From: Ophiosphaerella korrae | Lineage: Eukaryota; Ascomycota; Dothideomycetes; Pleosporales; Phaeosphaeriaceae | Assembly (NCBI GenBank): GCA_028456385.1 | Contig: JALNQF010000068.1 | Location: 124,001 to 188,000, forward strand | DNA: 64,000 nucleotides | Reading direction: 5' to 3' | Part shown: one piece after another, positions 44,330 to 62,226 of the stretch | Numbering within the stretch: position 1 is the first letter of the stretch | How the letters are laid out: the number at the start of each line of letters is the position of its first letter | Made by a program: the position numbers and the translations under genes | The notes under the pieces: generated by a model | What the model saw: the letters and a program-made list of their open reading frames with translations, nothing else | What the model was told of the DNA's origin: nothing | Databases searched by the model: none

Positions 44330-46200
44330 AGCCTTGTAAAGTATGGTAGATTGAGGGACCTAAGGACATGTTCTATATAATTGTTACACTACTGGATTTC
44401 ATCATGCAGAGGAAAGGCGTTAGTAAGTAGATCATGCCTCCTTAGATACCCGTTTCGTATGACGGAGTACATGTATTATGCTTGTAATTGTTTCTTTCAA
44501 ATCATGCACGTTCAAAGAGCAATGTATCGTTTGTATGCTTATGCTGAAGACTGGGCTAAATAGCTCAGCGTCTCATATCAGGTTAACCACTAATCAATTG
44601 CATGTTATGGTACCCGAGTCTTAGGCTGCAGAAAGTCGCGGTCTGAAAACTGCGGCTCACGGTGGTGCTCTTTTGCCAAATGTGGTCAAAAAAATGTATC
44701 CCAATTCGTGTGCGTAAGCTATGCATGCCAAATACGAGCAATCTCACGTCATTCATGATACGCTATGGGGAGTCTAGCCCGGCTCTTTCCACGGTTCCTG
44801 AACCACGCCCCGCATTCAGCTTAAATGCGGTCAAATCAAGCTGTCGCCGATCGACCGCGCGAAACCCGAATCCAGGCTCCACACCGTGTGAGACACTGCG
44901 CTGGCCTAGCTTACTGTCCCTATCCTAGCGAAAAACTTACCTGACTGTGTACCCACCAATCGCTACAAAGTCTGCACTGGTGTGCTAGCCGTTACCGATG
45001 ATCCCTGGCTGTTTTGGCGTGCCCATGGCAATATCCAATATTTCAAGCCTTGAGGGCACTAGGCTTAGCGCTCTTAGTGCCTTTGGAAGGCTTCGGATGT
45101 TCCCGTTCCCGTTCCCAAGTCTCTCTAGGCACAACAGATTCGCTACGAGAGTCTGCGTAAATATAATAGCTTTTTCAAATTCTTGTCTTTGCGTTTCTCA
45201 TGGGCATGAGATGCTGACTGGTTACAAAACAATAGCTTTACCAAGGCGAAAAGTTTTGTAGGTTATTTCTGGCCGAGATGTGCTGCCGATGTTCCGAACA
45301 GAGGGGTGTGTAAGCCACCCCTAATATCTTTAAGGCGACCAAATATCATGATGCACTGCAGGGGGTCAGCCCTCCCCCTCCTTAGACCCCCACTCAGCCT
45401 TAAGAACGAGCCACATAACCGAGCCTATGTCAAAGCTTGTATTGATCTACCAGATTTTTGTTATTGGGGACATCCAAATTGGCTGCATTAAAATGCACCT
45501 ACGACGCACCACAAAATCATGGGCGTTAGGTCCAAATACTCTAAGACATAAAGCATTCATTTTGTCTTACATCTTTCCACTTCGAGCGAAACAAAATTCG
45601 GCCCTTCCATTCGGGCTCAGGCATTGAGTCTGACAGTCAGAGCCGTGCAGGCCACACACCACCTCGGAGATGTATCTAGGTATGTCTAACGGTCATCAGC
45701 CACCTTGAATCTCAACTTGCATGGCCACATCCGGCTTTACGTAATTGGTTGTATTCGCTGCGATCTACAAGCTCCCTAAACCCATTCTTAGTCACATCTC
45801 GACGGTGCTTATGCAACGGGCCAGTTTATGGTAGGCCTAAGTGCATTTGTGACATACACACTATTGGTGCTTACATAGCTCGATAGTGTGGCTGTTTCCT
45901 AGTAAGACAATTAATTTACTTGCGCAGGTACAAGGATTGATTCTATAGCATGACAACCTCTGTCGACCACTAATATGTGTAACATGGCGATGAGCATCCC
46001 CTTTATTGTTAGTAAGAGGCTGGCTGAAGTACGAGAAGTAAGAGCTATTCTTTCAAGAAAGTTTCCATACTCAACGTTCTGGTTCCAGCTCTTAGCTAAA
46101 TATTCCACATGGGTGCTTCAAAAGCTACTGCAACACGTCAAATGATGTTAGAAAATTTCGGGCGAAGATCTCAATCACATTGAAATCTATACCATCTCTA
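44330..46200. other. Intergenic stretch without recognised genes
   Basis: After the HIR3 3' UTR I see only short, domain-free frames on both strands. Composition is ordinary and not clearly RIP-mutated. A C-rich patch with inverted GGGGT/ACCCC-like pieces occurs at 45300-45400. Nothing can be supported as a gene. Confidence 0.4.
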
Positions 46201-46491
46201 ATGACGAAGAAAATTCTCCAAACCCTTTCTAGCACTAACAAACAGCTACGTCACGAACTCTACAGGGACTTCGATTCTAATCAGATTCCATTTCAGTGCT
46301 ATATACAAGACTTGTGCCAAACAGAACTAAACGAGTGTGATATCTTAAGAAAGATAAGAATAGGTATGAACGAGAGTGTTGAAAATGAAGCCCCATCAAC
46401 CAGCAGTTCCATCACGTCCCCAACAAACTTCGACCTGGACAATTTATTTACATCGAAGAGTGTGCTACTCAAGCGGTATGACTGCGCCTAA
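46201..46491 (+). CDS. Hypothetical protein, 96 residues
   Basis: ATG at 46201 to TAA at 46489-46491; a TTG 21 bp upstream extends the frame but is not a likely start. The protein begins MTKKILQTLSSTNKQLRHEL, looks helical and mixed-charge in its first two thirds, and Ser/Thr-rich afterwards. Four cysteines, no signal peptide, no domain recognised. Its codon and residue use look protein-like rather than random, but it is short and may be a fragment of a decayed gene. Its 3' end overlaps the 3' end of the secreted-protein gene on the other strand by 4 bp, which is unusual and reduces confidence that both are expressed. Confidence 0.3.
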   Translation: MTKKILQTLSSTNKQLRHELYRDFDSNQIPFQCYIQDLCQTELNECDILRKIRIGMNESVENEAPSTSSSITSPTNFDLDNLFTSKSVLLKRYDCA

Positions 46492-46886
46492 GAGCTAGTC
46501 TTGTAGCACTTGCATTGGCTGCATCCGAATGGGCGATCCTTCTTGGGCTTGCTGAAGACACATCGTCCTTTAGAGCTGACTTTGCACTGTGTAGCAGGTG
46601 GGCATTGGTTGTAGTGGCAGTCCTTGCCTTTCTTGCTAGTGATTCCGCAGGTTGTACGGGCCATCAGACGGCTGATGACTTCTTCTCCATCGTCGATATC
46701 TTCTTCTTCCAAGTCTTCTGCTTCCACGTCGCGGGCATCGTATGGAGCTGCGATATCGGCTGCCCTGGCCTCAACAGGATTGTATTGAGCAAGAGAGTCG
46801 TCCTGAGCTGTTGGGGCAGCTAGGGAGAGTGGCACCGCACTGAGTACGGCGAGAGTGAGGAGGATGTTGCGGAGAGAAAGCATCAT
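46488..46886 (-). CDS. Small secreted cysteine-rich protein with acidic pro-region (effector or antimicrobial candidate)
   Basis: Intronless, 132 residues, ATG at 46886. Residues 1-23 form a signal peptide (MMLSLRNILLTLAVLSAVPL then SLAA). A strongly acidic stretch follows (54-69, EAEDLEEEDIDDGEE), then a basic RLMAR (73-77) that could be a processing site, and a compact basic domain (78-132) with eight cysteines at 80, 90, 95, 101, 109, 122, 125 and 127 and many lysines. The layout (signal, acidic pro-part, cationic cysteine-rich mature part) is known from defensin-like and other antimicrobial precursors and from fungal effectors. I recognise no named family; the spacing CSQCKC at the end is distinctive. 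It sits in an accessory-looking region about 6 kb from the transposon island. A TATA box lies about 100 bp upstream. Role is inference. Confidence 0.75.
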   Translation of the reverse strand: MMLSLRNILLTLAVLSAVPLSLAAPTAQDDSLAQYNPVEARAADIAAPYDARDVEAEDLEEEDIDDGEEVISRLMARTTCGITSKKGKDCHYNQCPPATQCKVSSKGRCVFSKPKKDRPFGCSQCKCYKTSS

Positions 46887-46986: not shown

Positions 46987-46995
46987 CCTTATATA
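46987..46995 (-). promoter_or_regulatory. TATA box of the secreted cysteine-rich protein gene
   Basis: TATATAAGG on the minus strand, about 101-109 bp upstream of the ATG at 46886. Position and sequence are good for a strongly regulated fungal gene. Confidence 0.55.
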
Positions 46996-52521: not shown

Positions 52522-53100
52522 GTGGGGCTCACCGCCTAGTGCCCGCCCCCACCTAATGCCCGCTTTGGCCGTATCGCAAATTTTTACAACCCAACTTCAA
52601 CATCAATTATCTCAGCCAATATAGGTAATCTAGATGCAGCGATTGCAGCTGTAGAATCGCTGAAGCCAGGAGAACAGGCCTGTTGGTCTAGAATTGCTAA
52701 GACTTATAGCGTTAATCGATCAACGCTATCAAAAAGATACCAGGGCAAAACTCGCCCAAGCGATGCGAAGACACTCAACGAGCGTTTACTCAACCTACAA
52801 CAAGAGGATAAGCTTATACTGTATTATAATAAGCTCTACACAAGAGGGCTACTACCTTTACGAGGGATAATGCGAAATTTTGCGTTAGAACTAGCTCAAA
52901 AACCAGCTAGAAAGAACTAGGCTAATCGTTTTATCGCACAGCACACTAACAAGCTTATTATACGCTAGGCCTCTAGACTTAATACTACGCGTAAAAATAC
53001 TAACTCTATATATAAATATATACTCTATAAAGCTATAGTATTATAAGGTAGACTATTATAGACTACTATCTAATATCAAGATAGTAACTACTTATATATA
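52522..53100 (+). mobile_element. 5' fragment of a pogo/Fot-like (Tc1/mariner superfamily) DNA transposon
   Basis: The likely terminus, after a TA at 52520-52521, starts GTGGGGCTCACCGCC and carries a near-repeat (CCTAGTGCCCGC and CCTAATGCCCGC). From 52633 a frame is open to the TAG at 52918 and matches the N-terminal part of pogo/Fot transposases: a psq/CENP-B-type helix-turn-helix (SRIAKTYSVNRSTLSKRYQG), then the linker LYTRGLLPLRGIMRNFALEL. The TAG at 52918-52920 and another about 60 bp later occur where tryptophan codons are expected, fitting TGG-to-TAG RIP mutation. Beyond about 52.98 kb the sequence is too eroded to read and no catalytic DDE/D region is seen. The right end is not found; the element is truncated or split by later insertions. 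Confidence 0.65.
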
Positions 53101-53484
53101 GTATATTAATAGAAGTAGAATAGACTAAGGAATTTATAGTTAATAGTTAACTATTAATAAGCTAAAAGTACTAAATAATTCTAAATAATAGATATTAAAG
53201 TAGTGTTACTTTTAGTTAAAGATTAGGATTAATAATATTAACTTAATATTAAACATTATCTTAACTATATACTTTATTCTTAAATTCTTAATCTATTAAT
53301 TTATAAAACTTAGAGCTTATATATCTTTATAGATCTATAGATTACTTATTTATTTTAATTATATTTAACTTCTTAATTAAGTTTATTATTTTATAAGTTA
53401 TATAAGTTATTATTTTCTAGTATAAAACTAATTACTTTTATTCTTAGTTTTCTTATTATATCTATAATACTATCTTTTCTTTTA

Positions 53485-54012
53485 TATAATAGGCTACCTG
53501 TTATTAACTATAGATACCTATCTTGTAAGGGTTAGTAGATTATAAGGTAATAACAAAAGCTTATATAGGTAATCTATAATAACTATAAATAATAGAAGAT
53601 ATTTTATAACTATCTTATATTAGCGTTCTATAGTTAAGGGATTAAATTACTAATACTATCCTAATAATATATATTATAGTAACTATATACTTTTAGTAAT
53701 CTATTTGTATAACCTTATAGATTACTACTAATCTATTATACGTAACTATAGATTACCTTAATCTATTATACGTTATTGTAGATTACTACTAATCTATTAT
53801 ACGTAATTATAGATTACTTTAATCTATTATACGTTATTATAGATTACTACTAATCTATTGTATATAATTATAGATTACTATTACGTATCCTAATTGTAGT
53901 TAGTTTCCTAATTAATTTTATTATCTTATAGGTTATTACCCTACTTATCCTATACTTTATTAGTAGCTAAGCGTAGACTAATTAGTTCTATCTTGTTTTC
54001 CCTAATTACTAC
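53485..54012 (-). repeat. Inverted solo-LTR-like copy of the Gypsy LTR
   Basis: Reverse complement similarity to the LTRs at 55.2 and 61.8 kb along most of its length, including the tandem AATCTATTATACGT-type units and the GATAGAACTAATTAG block. It is about 528 bp, longer than the other two because it holds more of the tandem units, and it retains more G and C, so it appears less mutated. Confidence 0.7.
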
Positions 54013-54041
54013 TATAATATTTTAAGTAGTCTTTTTATTAT

Positions 54042-54095
54042 AAGTATAATAAAAGAAATTAAAATAAAACTAATTAGTTAATACTTAAGTTAATA
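54042..54095 (+). repeat. Fragment of the Gypsy LTR 5' end in direct orientation
   Basis: TATAATAAAAGAAATTAAAA followed by TAAAACTAATTAG matches the first ~40 bases of the LTR at 55189 after C-to-T/G-to-A changes. Similarity stops after about 50 bp. Confidence 0.5.
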
Positions 54096-55188
54096 CTTAA
54101 GCTAAAGTAGTTAAGTTTAGGTAAGTACTAGTTTACTTAACTTAGTTAAAGTAGTAAAACTTTTAATTATTAAATTTAAAGTTATAAAATTAATAGATAT
54201 AAACTTAAGTAAAAAAAGAGTTAATTAATTAATCTTTATATCTATTTATTTCTAGCCTTATACTTTATCTATATAATTATACTATAGTAGTCTTAGCTAA
54301 GTTTTTTAAGATAGTAGTAAGCTAAATCCTTAGTATTTATTTTATTAAAGTACTAGTTCCTTTATTATATTAGTTATCTAATATAGTTTATTTTTTTATA
54401 TTTAAGATCTTTTATTTAGTTTTTTTATTTATAAAAGTTAAAGCTATAATCTTTTTAGCTATAGTAAAGTTAATAGTTTAGTAATTATTATACTTTTTTA
54501 CTAAGCTAATTAATAGATTCTAAGTATACCTAGAATCTATTATACTTTTCTATATATATACTATTTTATATCTAATTATATATCTAATTATATAACTTAT
54601 CTAATAATAGTTAATAAATAATAGAATTATACTTCTAGATTTAAGATTAATTAAAGTATAAAATCTAGATCAATTTTATTTTAGATTTTATAAGCTATAT
54701 ATCTATCTTTTAGTTAAATTATATATACTATATAGTTAGTATTACTTTTTAGTATTATTATTAGATTATACTATAATATAAGTAATATTATAGTAGTTAT
54801 AAGTTGTATTATTCTTAAATCTTTTAAGCTAATATTTTTTAGTTATATAGTATAGTTAAAGTAGTAAAACTTATAATTATTAGATTTAAAGTAAGTTTTT
54901 ATAATAACTTAAATCTATATAAGTATATAATAAATATCTATAATAAATAATTAAGAAAAAACTATTATATTATCTTTTTAGTAAGTTATAAAACTTTTTT
55001 TATATATATACTCTAAACTTTATTATATACTAACTTTACTATTATAAGTACTATATTATAGATATATACTTATAACTCTTTAAATAATTCTAATATTATT
55101 TATAGCTAGAGAGTAAAGCTAGAAATAAATAAATAGAATAATTAATCTATTTAATTTTAACTAATATTTTATTCTAAGTATAATAAGA
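54096..55188. repeat. Unclassified AT-rich segment with internal direct and inverted repeats
   Basis: A 39-bp near-identical direct repeat (AGTTAAAGTAGTAAAACTT...) occurs at 54144-54182 and 54854-54892. A weaker inverted pair built on TCTATTTATTTCTAG occurs near 54240-54270 and 55105-55140. The segment might be a small DNA element or rearranged pieces of one. No coding remnant is readable. Confidence 0.45.
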
Positions 55189-55598
55189 GAAATTAAGATA
55201 GAACTAATTAGTCCTAACTTAGATACTAATAAAGAATAGGATAAGTAGAGTAATAACTTTAATTAGGAAACTACTTATAATTAGGATACGTAGTACTAAT
55301 CTATAATTACGTATAATAGATTAGTAGTAATCTATAATAACGTATAATAGATTAAAGTAATCTATAATATTATATAAATAGATTAGTATAAGTATATAGT
55401 TTATATAATATATATTATTAAGATAGTATTAGTAATTTAATCTCTTAACTATAGAATAATAATACTTAATATTGTATATATAAATTAACTATTATTCTTA
55501 GTTATTATAGATTACTACATAAGCTTTTATTATTAACTCTTAATCTACTAATACTATTAAAGGATTACCTATAGTTAATAATAGAGTAACCTATTATA
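55189..55598 (+). repeat. 5' LTR of the Ty3/Gypsy element
   Basis: About 410 bp, direct repeat of 61777-62226. Shared landmarks: TATAATAAGAGAAATTAAG at the start, GATAGAACTAATTAG, tandem ~31-bp units, TAGTATTAGTAATTTAATC, and GTTAATAATAGAGTAAC near the end. Three tandem units are present. Ends are set by where similarity stops; original TG...CA termini appear to have mutated. Confidence 0.8.
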
Positions 55599-58500
55599 CC
55601 TTACTAATTTAGTTATTATAAGAAGTAAAGTATAAGTAGCGTATAGTCTAAGCTAATACAATAGTAGAAAGTTTAACTAAGAAAGAAAGTAAGCTACTTT
55701 AAGTACCTTTAAGTAGTTACAAATTAGATAATACTATATAGAAAGTAATTAAAGACTACCTAAACAACTTAATTTCTAAAAAAGAAGATATAAAGATAGT
55801 AATTAACACCTTAAAGATATAGAATAAGAAACTCTAGGACTACGTAAAATAAAATAAAGTATAGATTAAAGCTATTATTAAAGGATAAAACTAAATAGAA
55901 CTAATTATATAAAGACTAGAGATAAGTATAATAAAGAAGCTACTAAAGATACCTATACTTAAGAAGTTTAATAGAATAAAGAAAGTACTAAAACTTTTTA
56001 TAGTATTAGTATAACTCTAAATTAATATATAAGTACTATACTTTAATAGAGAAGATAAGAAAGTAATATATATTAGAATACACCTTAAATAAGATATAAT
56101 AAGATAGTTTAAACCTTACTAGATAGATTATATAATATATACTTAGATAAACTAGAAAGATAAAATAAAAGCTATCTTTAGAAGTTATAAATACTTTATA
56201 AAATAAATAAGAGTAGTATTTAAAGATATAAATATTACTTAATAAGCTAAAGAGAAGCTTAAAAAGCTTATATAAAATAAGAGTATTCCTAAATATATAT
56301 TATAGTTTAAATAACTATTATAAAATATAGAATAGAAAAAGCTATCTCTAATATTATAATTTAAATAAATACTAAACTTAAAGATATAATATAAAATAAT
56401 TTATATAAAAAAGCTAAGAATACTAGAAGCTCTAAAGTAATAGGTAATATAAATTAATAATAACTTCTAAGAATAAAGAAAGAATAAGTATAGAGTACCT
56501 ACCTAGAATTATAACAAGGAAGACTCTATAGTCTTTAACACTAATAAGGATAAAAAGAAAAGAAAGAATAAAGACTTTATATACTTTAATTATAGTAAGT
56601 TAGGATACTATATAAAGAACTACTAATTAAAATAGAAAAAAGATATAGTATAGTATAAATATAAGAAACTAAGACACTTTATAAAAGATTATAGAAGTAA
56701 AGACTCTAAGAAAGATAAAGAAACTTAGTTAAAAATAACTAAAAGAAGAAAAGAAGTACTAAAAGTATAGGCTAAACTTTAAAAAAAAGTAGCTAGGAGT
56801 AAAGAAGTATAATACGTAATACTCTATTAGGCCTTTTATTATAATAATAACTACTTTATATATCTTTTTAGTAAATAAAGAGTAAGATAGTTCCTATAAA
56901 AGTATAAAGTAGTAGTAATAAAAGAAAGTAGAATAAAAGTATAGCTAGAAGAAATAGCCTATATAATAGACTTACTATTAGAAGATTTAAAAGGAGAAGA
57001 GCTCTAGATACTTTTAATCTAGGCTAAAGTACTAGTACTAGATAAAGAGACTACTATAGCTACTTCTAAAGAACTATAAAGAAATAAAAAGTAAGTTAAT
57101 ATAAAAAATATAGAGTATACCTAGTTAAATATATATAGCTATAATAGCTATATAATATTAGATATAGTAGAATAAAATAAAGAATAGAAGTTTATTTAGA
57201 AATACTTACTAGTTATAAGTATAGAGGAAGCGTATAAAGACTAGAAAGAATATAATCCTAAAGTAATAAAGTTTATAATATTTTAATAATAGATAGAATA
57301 ATATATAGTTATAGTAAGAAGAATACTTATATAAAGAGAGTAGTAGTATTTTATAAGAAAAATATAATAGATTAATAAAGGTTATATACTATAAGTACTA
57401 ATAGTATACTATATTCTAGTAACTATAAGACCTAGTATAGATAGATACTAGGTAGGAGATAATAAAAGAATAGATCTAGAATATCTAGTATACTTAGAGA
57501 TAGTATAGATATTATACCTAAATTTAAATTACTACTTATATAGAGAAGTAAAAGTATAAAACTACTTATAGCTAAAAAGAGAAAAAAGATATAACTATAT
57601 AAGAGTAATCCTAAGAAAAGAAATTAAAAGTTAGGAAATAATTAAAATACCTAATAAAGAATATATATTAATTAGACTAAGACCTAAACTATTAAAAGAA
57701 TATATTAAAGGAAGGCTATAGTATAAATATACATAGAATAAATATCTAAAATATAAGAATAATAAATATAAAATAAGATAATAGCTATAAAAGAATAGAT
57801 AATTTAAAGAAAGACCTAAGTAAGAAAAGCTAGAAAGTATACTAGGCTTACGTATTACAAAAAAGAGAATATACTAAAGAAAAGAAGTATAATTAATAAT
57901 TAATAGTAAAGCTATAAAGAACTTTATATTAAAAAAGTTTATAGAAAACTAAAGAATAGAGTATATTATAAAAAGATACCCTTAATAATTAAGTATAATT
58001 AAAGGAAAACTATTCTAGAAACTTATTAAGTTTAAGATAGTACCTTTAATACTAAAACTAGAAAGACTAGAAATTAAGAATATAGTTATAGATATAATAA
58101 TAATTAATAATAAATAAGATATAATATTAGGAATACTATAGTTATAAATAACTAACCTAAGAATTAATTAGAGAATAGAGAAAATTAGCTACCTTAAAAG
58201 AGATATATTAAAAGCTAATATAACTATATATAAAGAATAGTTTATAAAAGAATATAAGAAATAAGAGAAATAACTTAGTAAACTAGATAACTACTTTCTA
58301 GAATATTAGCTATAGGACTTAGCAATAGAACTAGAAAAAAGAAAAAATATAAGATAGAGCCTAGTCTATAGAAAAATAGAGGAAAAACCTAAGATTAAGT
58401 AAATATTTATCTAGAATATATTAAAGAAAGAATAGATATAAGAATTAAAATCTATAATAGTATATAGACTTATATTTATAGATAAGAAAAAGATAGATAA

Positions 58501-61500
58501 TAAATAACTTTATAAAGATTTTAGAAAGATAAATATAATTATAAATAAATACTAATACCTTTTACTATATATTAAAAAGATATAAAATAGATTATAAAAG
58601 GCTTAAATCTTTATAAAACTAGGTATCTAAAACGCATACTACTAGATTAGAATTAAAAAAAGAGATAAATAGAAAACTATATTTAGAACGTAATATAAAC
58701 TATTTAAATACTTAGTTATACTATATAGACTAATAAACGTACTAGTAGTATTCTAAGAAAGAATTAATATAGTCTTAAGAAAGTACTTAGATATATTTAT
58801 ATTTATATACTTAGATAATATCTTTATATTCTTAGAAATAGAAGAAGAATACGTATAATATATATATAAAGTACTAGAAAAACTAGTAAAAAGTAAGCTA
58901 TTCTTTAAGATAAGAAAATATAAATTCTATACTAAAGAGATAGATTTCCTTAGATTTATTATAGAACTAGGAAAAATTAGGATTAACTTAAATAAGATTA
59001 GAGTAATCTAAGAATAGCTAATACCTAGGAATTTACAAGAGGTATAATAATTTTATAGACTAGTAAACTTCTATAAGAAATTAATAGTAGACTAGTCTAA
59101 GTTAATAGAACTACTAATAAACTTTATAAAAAAAGATATACTATTTAGTTAGATATATAAGTATAAAGAAGCCTTTAGCTAAATTAAATAGAGATTTATA
59201 GAAAACCTAGTAATTAAGATATATAACTTAGAACTACTAGTAATAGTAAAGATAGATATATCTAATTTAGTCTATAAAATAGTACTAATACATAAAGACC
59301 TAGATATAAAACAAGAATACTTAGTTAAATACTTTTCTAAGAAAATAAATCTAGTAGAGCTTAACTACCTAATTTATAATAAAGAAATACTAGTAATCTA
59401 TAAAGTATTTAAGTTATAAAGAGTATACTTATAAAGAGTAAAATACTAAATAAAAGTTTATATAGACTATAAGAACTTTATAAGATTTATAATAAATAAA
59501 GATTTATTATAATACTATATAAGATAGTAAAAGATCTTGTTAATATTTAATATAGAAATTATATATACTAAGAGTAAAGATAATTAATTTATAGATACTT
59601 TAAGTAAAAGACTAGATTTATAAAAAGAAGTAAATACTACTAGTATAGTTCTAGTTAAAAATAAAGAAAGATATCTAGTCTTAAATATACCTAAAATAGC
59701 AATAATACTTTAGAAGAAGACTAGTAAGCTAAATAAATAGATTTAAAAAGAAATAGAAAAAACTTCTAAAAAAATAAAAAAACTTAAAATTTAAAAAGAA
59801 ATTATAAAAGTATATAGAAGAATATATATACTAAGAAAAATATAAAGAGAGTTTATATAATAATTTTATAAACTACTAGTATATAGATATTAAAGTATTA
59901 ATAAAATATTAGATAGACTCTTAAGAAACTACTATATACTAAGAGTAAGATAACTAGTAATAGAAGTACTACAAGACTATATAGAATATTATAGAAATAA
60001 GTATAATAGATACGTACTATATAAAATACTATAACTAGTTAAGATACTAGAAAGACTATAGAGAGTTATAATAATAGACTTTATTATAAAGCTACTAAAG
60101 TCTAAAGACTTAATATTAAGAGTTAAGTATAATAAAATCCTAATAATAGTAGATAAGCTTATAAAGTATTTATACTTTAAGCTATATAAATAAAAAAGTA
60201 AGATAAAGGTTACTATATACTAGGTTCTAAGAACTATAATTAGCTAATATAGTATTCTAGATAAAATTATTATAGATAGAGATATAAGATTTATATGTAA
60301 ATTATAGGAAATAATAGTAGTATTATTAGGAATCTAGTATATAATATTAATAGTATACTACTTATAAATAGATAGATAATTAGAATATATAAACTAAATA
60401 GTAGAATAGTACTTAAGATACTATCTAAACTATAACTAGAATAATTAAGTATAGCTATTACTTATAGTTTAGTTAGTATATAATAGCGTAAAGAATATAG
60501 TAATAAGAGTATTTTTTTTTATAAACTATAGATTTAACCCTAATATATACTAGATACTAAAACTCTAAGTATTTTAGTCTTTAAGAGGAGAAAACTTTAT
60601 AAATAGACTTAAAGAGAAATATAATTAATTATAATAGGACGTAGAATTTCTCTAAGATTAGATAGTAAAGTACTATAATAAAAAGTACTAAAGAAGATTC
60701 TAATTTAGAGAGAGAGAAAAAGTATAGTTAGTATATAAGAATATTAAAAGTAAATAATTAAGCTTAAAACTAGACTATATAAAGATAAGACTATATAAAA
60801 TTAAAAAAGAAGTTATACTAGTTATATTTAAACTAAGACTACTAGATAAGATAAAGATATACTTAATATTCTATATAGTACTACTAGAGAAAGTACTATA
60901 AGAAGTAAAACTACTAGTATATAAAGTAGATATATATAGAGAATAAGAAAAATAAAAAGTTAAAGAAATCTTATAGTACTAGTTTTATAATAGAAGAAAC
61001 TACTATCTAGTAAAATAGATAAGTATAAATAAGAAAAGCTAACTATAAGAAGATATATAAAAACTAGAAGATAATCTTAACTACTTTAAAAAACTAGAAG
61101 AGTTCTAAAGTTAAAACCTTTTAGACTACTTAGTAGTAAATAGAGAAGACCTACGTTATTAGTAATAGGTAGAGAGGCGCTAGATACGCCTAATATAATA
61201 GGAACCTAAGTAGCCTCTATTATAGACTTAAAGTCTAGCTTAGACTCTAAGAAAATAGCTTATAAGATAAACTTCTTATTATTTAAAGCTTTTATCTTAT
61301 AAAAATAAGCTAAATAAGTATAGTTCTCTACCTATATACTTAGAATATAGTTATACTCCTTTTTAGCTTCTATAATCTATAATAATAGTTTATCTTAAGT
61401 ATAGTTAATAGCTCTCTCTATTATATCTAAGTACTAACGCGTAAATAAGCTTAATAAACTTATACTCTACTAAAAAGATACTAGATAAATTATAAACTAA

Positions 61501-61776
61501 ATAAGTATTAGTATAAATATATACTTTATAAGCCTTACTATACTTTAAAGAATAATAAACTAATAAAAAGTTAGAAAACTTATAATAAAAATAAAAAAAT
61601 ATTTTAATACTATAATATAATATATAGTTTACTAACTAAAAGTAATAAAGAGTAGATTTAATAAGTATAAAGATAAAGAATAAAGAACTTAATATTAATA
61701 AAAAAACTAGATTAATAATATTAGTTCTAGTAAAAGAAAATAAAAACCTATCTAAAGAAGAGAATAGTATTATAGG

Positions 61777-62226
61777 TATAATAAGAGAAATTAAGATAGA
61801 ACTAATTAGTCTTAACTTAGATACTAACAAAGTATAAGATAAGTAAAGTAATAACTTTAATTAGAAAACTACTTATAATTAAGATATATAGTACTAATCT
61901 ATAATTATATATAATAAATTAGTAGTAATTTATAATAACGTATAATAGATTAAGGTAATTTATAATTATATATAATAGATTAAAGTAATTTATAATATTA
62001 TATAAATAAATTAGTATAAGTATATAGTTAATATAATATATATTATTAGGATAGTATTAGTAATTTAATCCCTTAACTATAGAATACTAATACGTAATAT
62101 TATATATATAAATTAACTATTAATCTTAGTTATTATAGATTACTATACGAGCTTTTGTTATTAACTCTTAATCTACTAATACCTCTAAAGAATTACTTGT
62201 AGTTAATAATAGAGTAACTTATTATA
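61777..62226 (+). repeat. 3' LTR of the Ty3/Gypsy element
   Basis: About 450 bp, homologous to 55189-55598 but about 40 bp longer because it carries one more ~31-bp tandem unit. No clean target-site duplication could be confirmed around the element. Confidence 0.8.

Follow-up and report, generated by a model that had tools for sequence, protein, structure and literature searches.

The window analyzed here, the whole 64,000-nucleotide stretch of Ophiosphaerella korrae contig JALNQF010000068.1 (assembly GCA_028456385.1, positions 124,001 to 188,000), contains on its minus strand an intronless open reading frame (ORF) at 46488–46886, which encodes a precursor of 132 amino acids followed by a stop. 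The ATG lies at the 46886 end and the stop codon at 46488–46490, a frame that the relatives described below support. All features of the precursor gene are given on this strand. Residues 1–23 (46818–46886) resemble a signal peptide, with the cut between SLA and AP set by eye, and the hydropathy maximum of the precursor falls at residues 8–18 (Kyte-Doolittle 11-residue mean of 2.75; the best such mean starting beyond residue 30 is 0.68). Residues 24–77 (46656–46817) form an acidic pro-part with a net charge of −13 and 17 Asp or Glu residues, the most acidic stretch being, as read from the sequence, residues 53–69 (DVEAEDLEEEDIDDGEE; 46680–46730). The pro-part ends in RLMAR (residues 73–77), of which residues 74–77 (LMAR; 46656–46667) make up an LxxR site of the form given in PMC8528282. 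The predicted mature cationic domain spans residues 78–132 (46491–46655), a 55-residue part with a net charge of +10 and a pI of 9.5 that holds all eight cysteines of the precursor (positions 80, 90, 95, 101, 109, 122, 125, and 127). Within this domain, C101-KVSSKGR-C109 (46560–46586) follows the order C-X5-GXC and is modelled as a β-hairpin with strands at residues 101–103 and 109–111. Upstream, a TATA box (TATATA; 46990–46995) starts 109 nt ahead of the ATG, and downstream 39 nt of 3′ sequence precede an AATAAA signal (46443–46448). This layout agrees with the original prediction, which had described a secreted precursor with a signal peptide, a very acidic stretch, and a lysine-rich eight-cysteine C-terminal domain.

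Codon usage gives modest support to the 46488–46886 frame, which scores +0.17 bits per codon relative to local coding usage, while the five other frames range from −0.18 to +0.09. An overlapping plus-strand ORF at 46515–46823 scores +0.06 bits per codon and looks like a shadow of the precursor ORF. A convergent plus-strand ORF of 103 amino acids (46180–46491) ends inside the 3′ end of the precursor gene; it matches no Pfam family at E 0.01, and its coding score is below zero. The precursor gene itself sits in a gene-sparse gap of 4.5 kb, flanked by a 2028-aa ORF that weakly matches TPR and by an F-box ORF, and lies approximately 6 kb from an AT-rich block. This block, at 53001–62000, is strongly RIP-type, with about 9 kb at 15–20% GC, TpA/ApT of 1.4–1.7, and (CpA+TpG)/(ApC+GpT) of 0.01–0.12. 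At its edge, a plus-strand frame at 52540–52917 matches the Psq helix-turn-helix domain (PF05225, E 9.2e-5) and is perhaps the remnant of a pogo-type transposase.

A family of eight-cysteine precursors

The closest homolog is a protein of Phaeosphaeriaceae sp. PMI808, sharing 86% identity across 99% of the length (E 1.3e-68), and 15 relatives were found when one single-sequence search and two profile searches were combined. The single-protein search returned 2 relatives out of 10 candidates, a three-sequence profile returned 11 proteins, and a twelve-sequence profile returned 14, scoring in both profile searches being limited to the 7997 candidates with the most shared words; P0010 was found by the three-sequence profile and is absent from the result of the twelve-sequence profile. 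Members in named fungi come from PMI808 and Ophiobolus disseminans (Pleosporales), Zopfia rhizophila (Dothideomycetes), and Hypoxylon sp. FL1857 and Cladobotryum mycophilum (Sordariomycetes), and lineage records place two of the relatives in the Phaeosphaeriaceae. P0010–P0012 lack the normal N-terminus and are perhaps truncated gene models, leaving 13 full-length members. In O. korrae itself, searches covering 63.0 Mb on 974 contigs gave the gene itself as the sole protein match at E 10 or better, and a DNA query also gave a single match.

All 16 members share the eight aligned cysteines, with the spacing 9-4-(4/5)-(7/8)-(10-13)-2-1, and T83, S84, G107, and R118 are likewise invariant. The C-X5-GXC pattern is found in 14 of the 16, yet it also arises in 24% of shuffles. 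Mean pairwise identity among the full-length members (P0010–P0012 omitted) is 0.66 for the signal part, 0.28 for the pro-part, and 0.51 for the mature part. In a tree built from the mature domains of all 16 members, the two Sordariomycete proteins are placed in separate groups (AU p 0.038), a weakly supported split that may hint at ancient copies followed by losses, or at transfer.

A chance ORF or mis-called gene could be suspected from the gene-sparse surroundings and the modest codon signal. However, the 86%-identical full-length homolog and the cysteines aligned throughout the family speak strongly against it, and TATA and AATAAA are both in place, making this explanation extremely improbable. 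With 15 relatives, of which five come from named fungi in two classes, sequence comparison confirms the precursor gene as real, beyond chance.

Structure prediction separates the two parts of the precursor. The precursor model (12 sequences) has a mean pLDDT of 67, with residues 81–130 at 86–88, residues 21–70 at 44–59, and a helix at 67–75 just ahead of the cut. The model of the mature part (16 sequences) reaches a mean pLDDT of 86.6 and a pTM of 0.60, with strands at 2–7, 24–26, 32–34, and 48–53 in fragment numbering. The C-terminal domain, for which the original prediction had proposed structure prediction as a check and the lack of a disulfide-compatible fold as a refutation, is modelled with fair confidence and does not bear out that refutation, though the disulfide pairing is not readable from the model; four disulfides are predicted from the eight cysteines. 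A fold search against PDB and viral libraries gave no significant match, which for 55 residues does not amount to a new fold, and a sequence search of the PDB likewise gave no significant match.

Known families were equally silent. A Pfam scan of the window protein and 10 other members produced nothing over any cut-off, and precomputed Pfam annotation is empty for all 15 relatives, so the earlier failure to recognize a family held up. No relative found suggests a non-secreted family; homology of that kind had been named in advance as an outcome that would count against the prediction. Two relatives carry source labels, "Dickkopf N-terminal cyste..." for P0008 and "Antifungal protein" for P0016; a Pfam match of either kind is absent at E 10, and both labels are probably automatic. 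The GCSQCKC end of the window protein follows a GCxxCxC order that we take to resemble antistasin repeats, and this likeness is the sole argument for an antistasin-like protease inhibitor. As the 11 of 16 members scanned lack an antistasin-like Pfam match at E 10, and the PDB gives no significant sequence or fold match, an inhibitor of this kind seems very improbable. Five locus tags of the named relatives were not found in the literature searched, and searches on a source label, or on two relative species together with small secreted proteins, found no description of the family. Because many journals and fungal genome portals lie outside this coverage, "undescribed" is a provisional term. The original interpretation is supported in part, namely for the secreted precursor, the cleavage motif, the charge pairing, and the lack of a known family.

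Predicted processing site and charge co-variation

The boundary at RLMAR, anticipated in the original prediction, proved to be a conserved motif ending at R77, with L74 present in 16 of 16 members and R77 in 15, all but the Cladobotryum member, which has LSVQ instead of LxxR. The residue right after the LxxR position is Ala in fourteen members and Thr in two. LxxR is the expanded Kex2 motif used by a survey of fungal effector pro-domains (PMC8528282, section 5), and the RLMAR boundary is a predicted cleavage site of this Kex2 type. A candidate enzyme is encoded in the same genome, where the one convertase P-domain match lies in an ORF of 847 aa that carries both a Peptidase_S8 and a P_proprotein domain and whose best solved relative is a kexin (E 4.8e-177), making it a predicted kexin-like gene. 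A pro-unit close to DVLxxLxxR occurs once in 10 members and is repeated at a distance of 22 residues in 4 of 16 (P0003, P0005, P0006, and P0009); it does not occur in P0015 and P0016. Since the unit is duplicated in these four members, an extra pro-peptide might be released from them.

Pairing of the acidic pro-part with the basic mature part had been suggested for the single precursor, and it is borne out by co-variation across the family. In tests devised after the charge table had been inspected, with part boundaries fixed by alignment, net pro and net mature charge are inversely related among the 13 full-length members, which are related rows (Spearman −0.71, p 0.007; Pearson −0.56, p 0.048). 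Independent contrasts of net charge, on a midpoint-rooted tree from the same proteins, give r −0.66, with opposite directions in 11 of 12. The Cladobotryum member is off-trend, having a nearly neutral pro-part (−1) and a mature part of +7; without it the Spearman coefficient is −0.77. Among the same 13 proteins, pro Asp+Glu follows mature Lys+Arg (Spearman 0.87; contrasts 0.74, two-sided sign-flip p 0.009) and not mature Asp+Glu (Spearman −0.23; contrasts −0.37, p 0.18), and pro-part length is not clearly related to mature charge (0.36, p 0.23). Mere drift to charged residues is disfavoured because pro Asp+Glu tracks mature Lys+Arg rather than mature Asp+Glu. Some compositional drift is possible, since pro Lys+Arg also tends upward with mature Lys+Arg (0.54, p 0.06). 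The co-variation of pro acidity with mature basicity, which is new here, supports charge pairing.

The same co-variation bears on a role in the fungus itself, where the product would serve in development or at the cell surface, for instance as a signal, as a protein bound to the wall, or as a self-acting regulator. The single copy found in the O. korrae genome and the presence of members in two classes of fungi fit such a role. However, members are found in five named fungi only (in searches that pre-select by words), unlike a core developmental gene, and the charge co-variation suggests a masked active part, so that an own-cell role is improbable.

Proposed function

In the secretory pathway, the acidic pro-part would pair with the basic domain, which it would hold inactive and help to fold. 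Kex2 would then cleave after LMAR in the late Golgi, and the released domain would be stabilized by four disulfides. Outside the cell, the mature domain would bind the anionic surfaces of competing microbes and inhibit them.

Members occur in Phaeosphaeriaceae, Zopfia, Hypoxylon, and Cladobotryum mycophilum, and plant-associated fungi are among these. C. mycophilum is a fungicolous species (PMC10989895). An antimicrobial use is considered most likely because members are present both in fungi associated with plants and in a species that lives on fungi, and for the same reason action on microbes is favoured over a role confined to plants. The precursor may best be read as a secreted, Kex2-activated cationic mini-protein that acts on microbes and is masked or chaperoned by its acidic pro-part, a reading that we regard as about evenly balanced between right and wrong.

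The main rival is an apoplastic effector aimed at the plant and of the Kex2-processed pro-domain (K2PP) type, which would be cleaved at LxxR and target plant surfaces, proteases, or receptors. A cationic, cysteine-rich, LxxR-bearing protein fits plant effectors too, and the location in a gene-sparse gap near the RIP-type block points the same way. Relative to PMI808, the mature part of the window protein carries 12 changes in 55 residues and the pro-part 5 in 54, which would favour an effector, but the difference has a p of 0.11. Parastagonospora nodorum belongs to the Phaeosphaeriaceae, as do two of the relatives. ToxA-type effectors, also reported from P. nodorum, have an LxxR in the pro-part (PMC8715435). 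However, LxxR processing is not effector-specific, one member occurs in the fungicolous C. mycophilum, and the PDB, which includes several effector folds, gives no significant match. On this evidence, a plant-directed effector is rather unlikely.

The antimicrobial reading can be extended, tentatively, to the whole group. The members could form an undescribed antimicrobial mini-protein family of Dothideomycetes and Sordariomycetes with its own four-disulfide fold and a co-evolving, Kex2-released electrostatic safety catch, of which the pro-unit and LxxR have been duplicated in some members. The analysis in any case defines a testable family of fungal cationic eight-cysteine proteins outside the Eurotiales AFP profile, and the family is a natural data set for testing pro-part masking through charge co-variation. 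If active, these compact peptides would merit attention as leads against fungi or bacteria and would bear on fungal competition on roots, wood, and mushrooms.

Comparison with known systems

The Eurotiales antifungal proteins (AFP/PAF) share with the window protein a prepro-protein, a cationic mature part of 50–60 residues, 6–8 cysteines, and a β-rich structure, as outlined in PMC11423270. The window protein shows the AFP-like layout in which a prepro-sequence precedes a small, cationic, cysteine-rich mature part, with the processing predicted. In contrast to AFP/PAF, its acidic pro-part ends in LxxR. Its mature model has four strands and AFP/PAF a five-stranded, disulfide-stabilized β-barrel, which may be a difference in fold. 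Membership is unsupported by the Pfam profile PF11402 (Antifungal_prot), which is unmatched at E 10 in the window protein and 10 other members. In the O. korrae genome, PF11402 has no match over the cut-off and one below it at E 3.2, and 14 control genomes likewise have none. PMC11423270 gives the AFP γ-core as GXC-X3-9-C or C-X3-9-CXG and describes it as disputed as a signature; neither form is present in the window protein, the one member checked. AFP is absent among the 40 Foldseek matches listed, folds this small being hard to match. The AFP pro-sequence is believed to protect the producer (PMC11423270).

With K2PP effectors such as ToxA, the window protein has in common a signal peptide, a disorder-prone pro-part, and LxxR (PMC8528282; PMC8715435). 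K2PP precursors carry KR, RR, or LxxR after a disorder-prone N-terminal stretch, and the window precursor has LxxR in such a place. The K2PP survey was limited to the first half of the protein (PMC8528282), and residues 74–77 of 132 fall outside this half for the whole precursor; once the signal peptide is removed, the LxxR site falls inside it. The window protein differs from these effectors in having no significant sequence or fold match.

Defensin-type peptides have six cysteines, whereas the window protein has eight and lacks a Pfam defensin match. Their precursors nevertheless share with it an acidic pro-part joined to a cationic, disulfide-rich peptide, the disulfides being predicted here, and anionic propeptides are thought to neutralize mature antimicrobial peptides until cleavage (PMC3179947).
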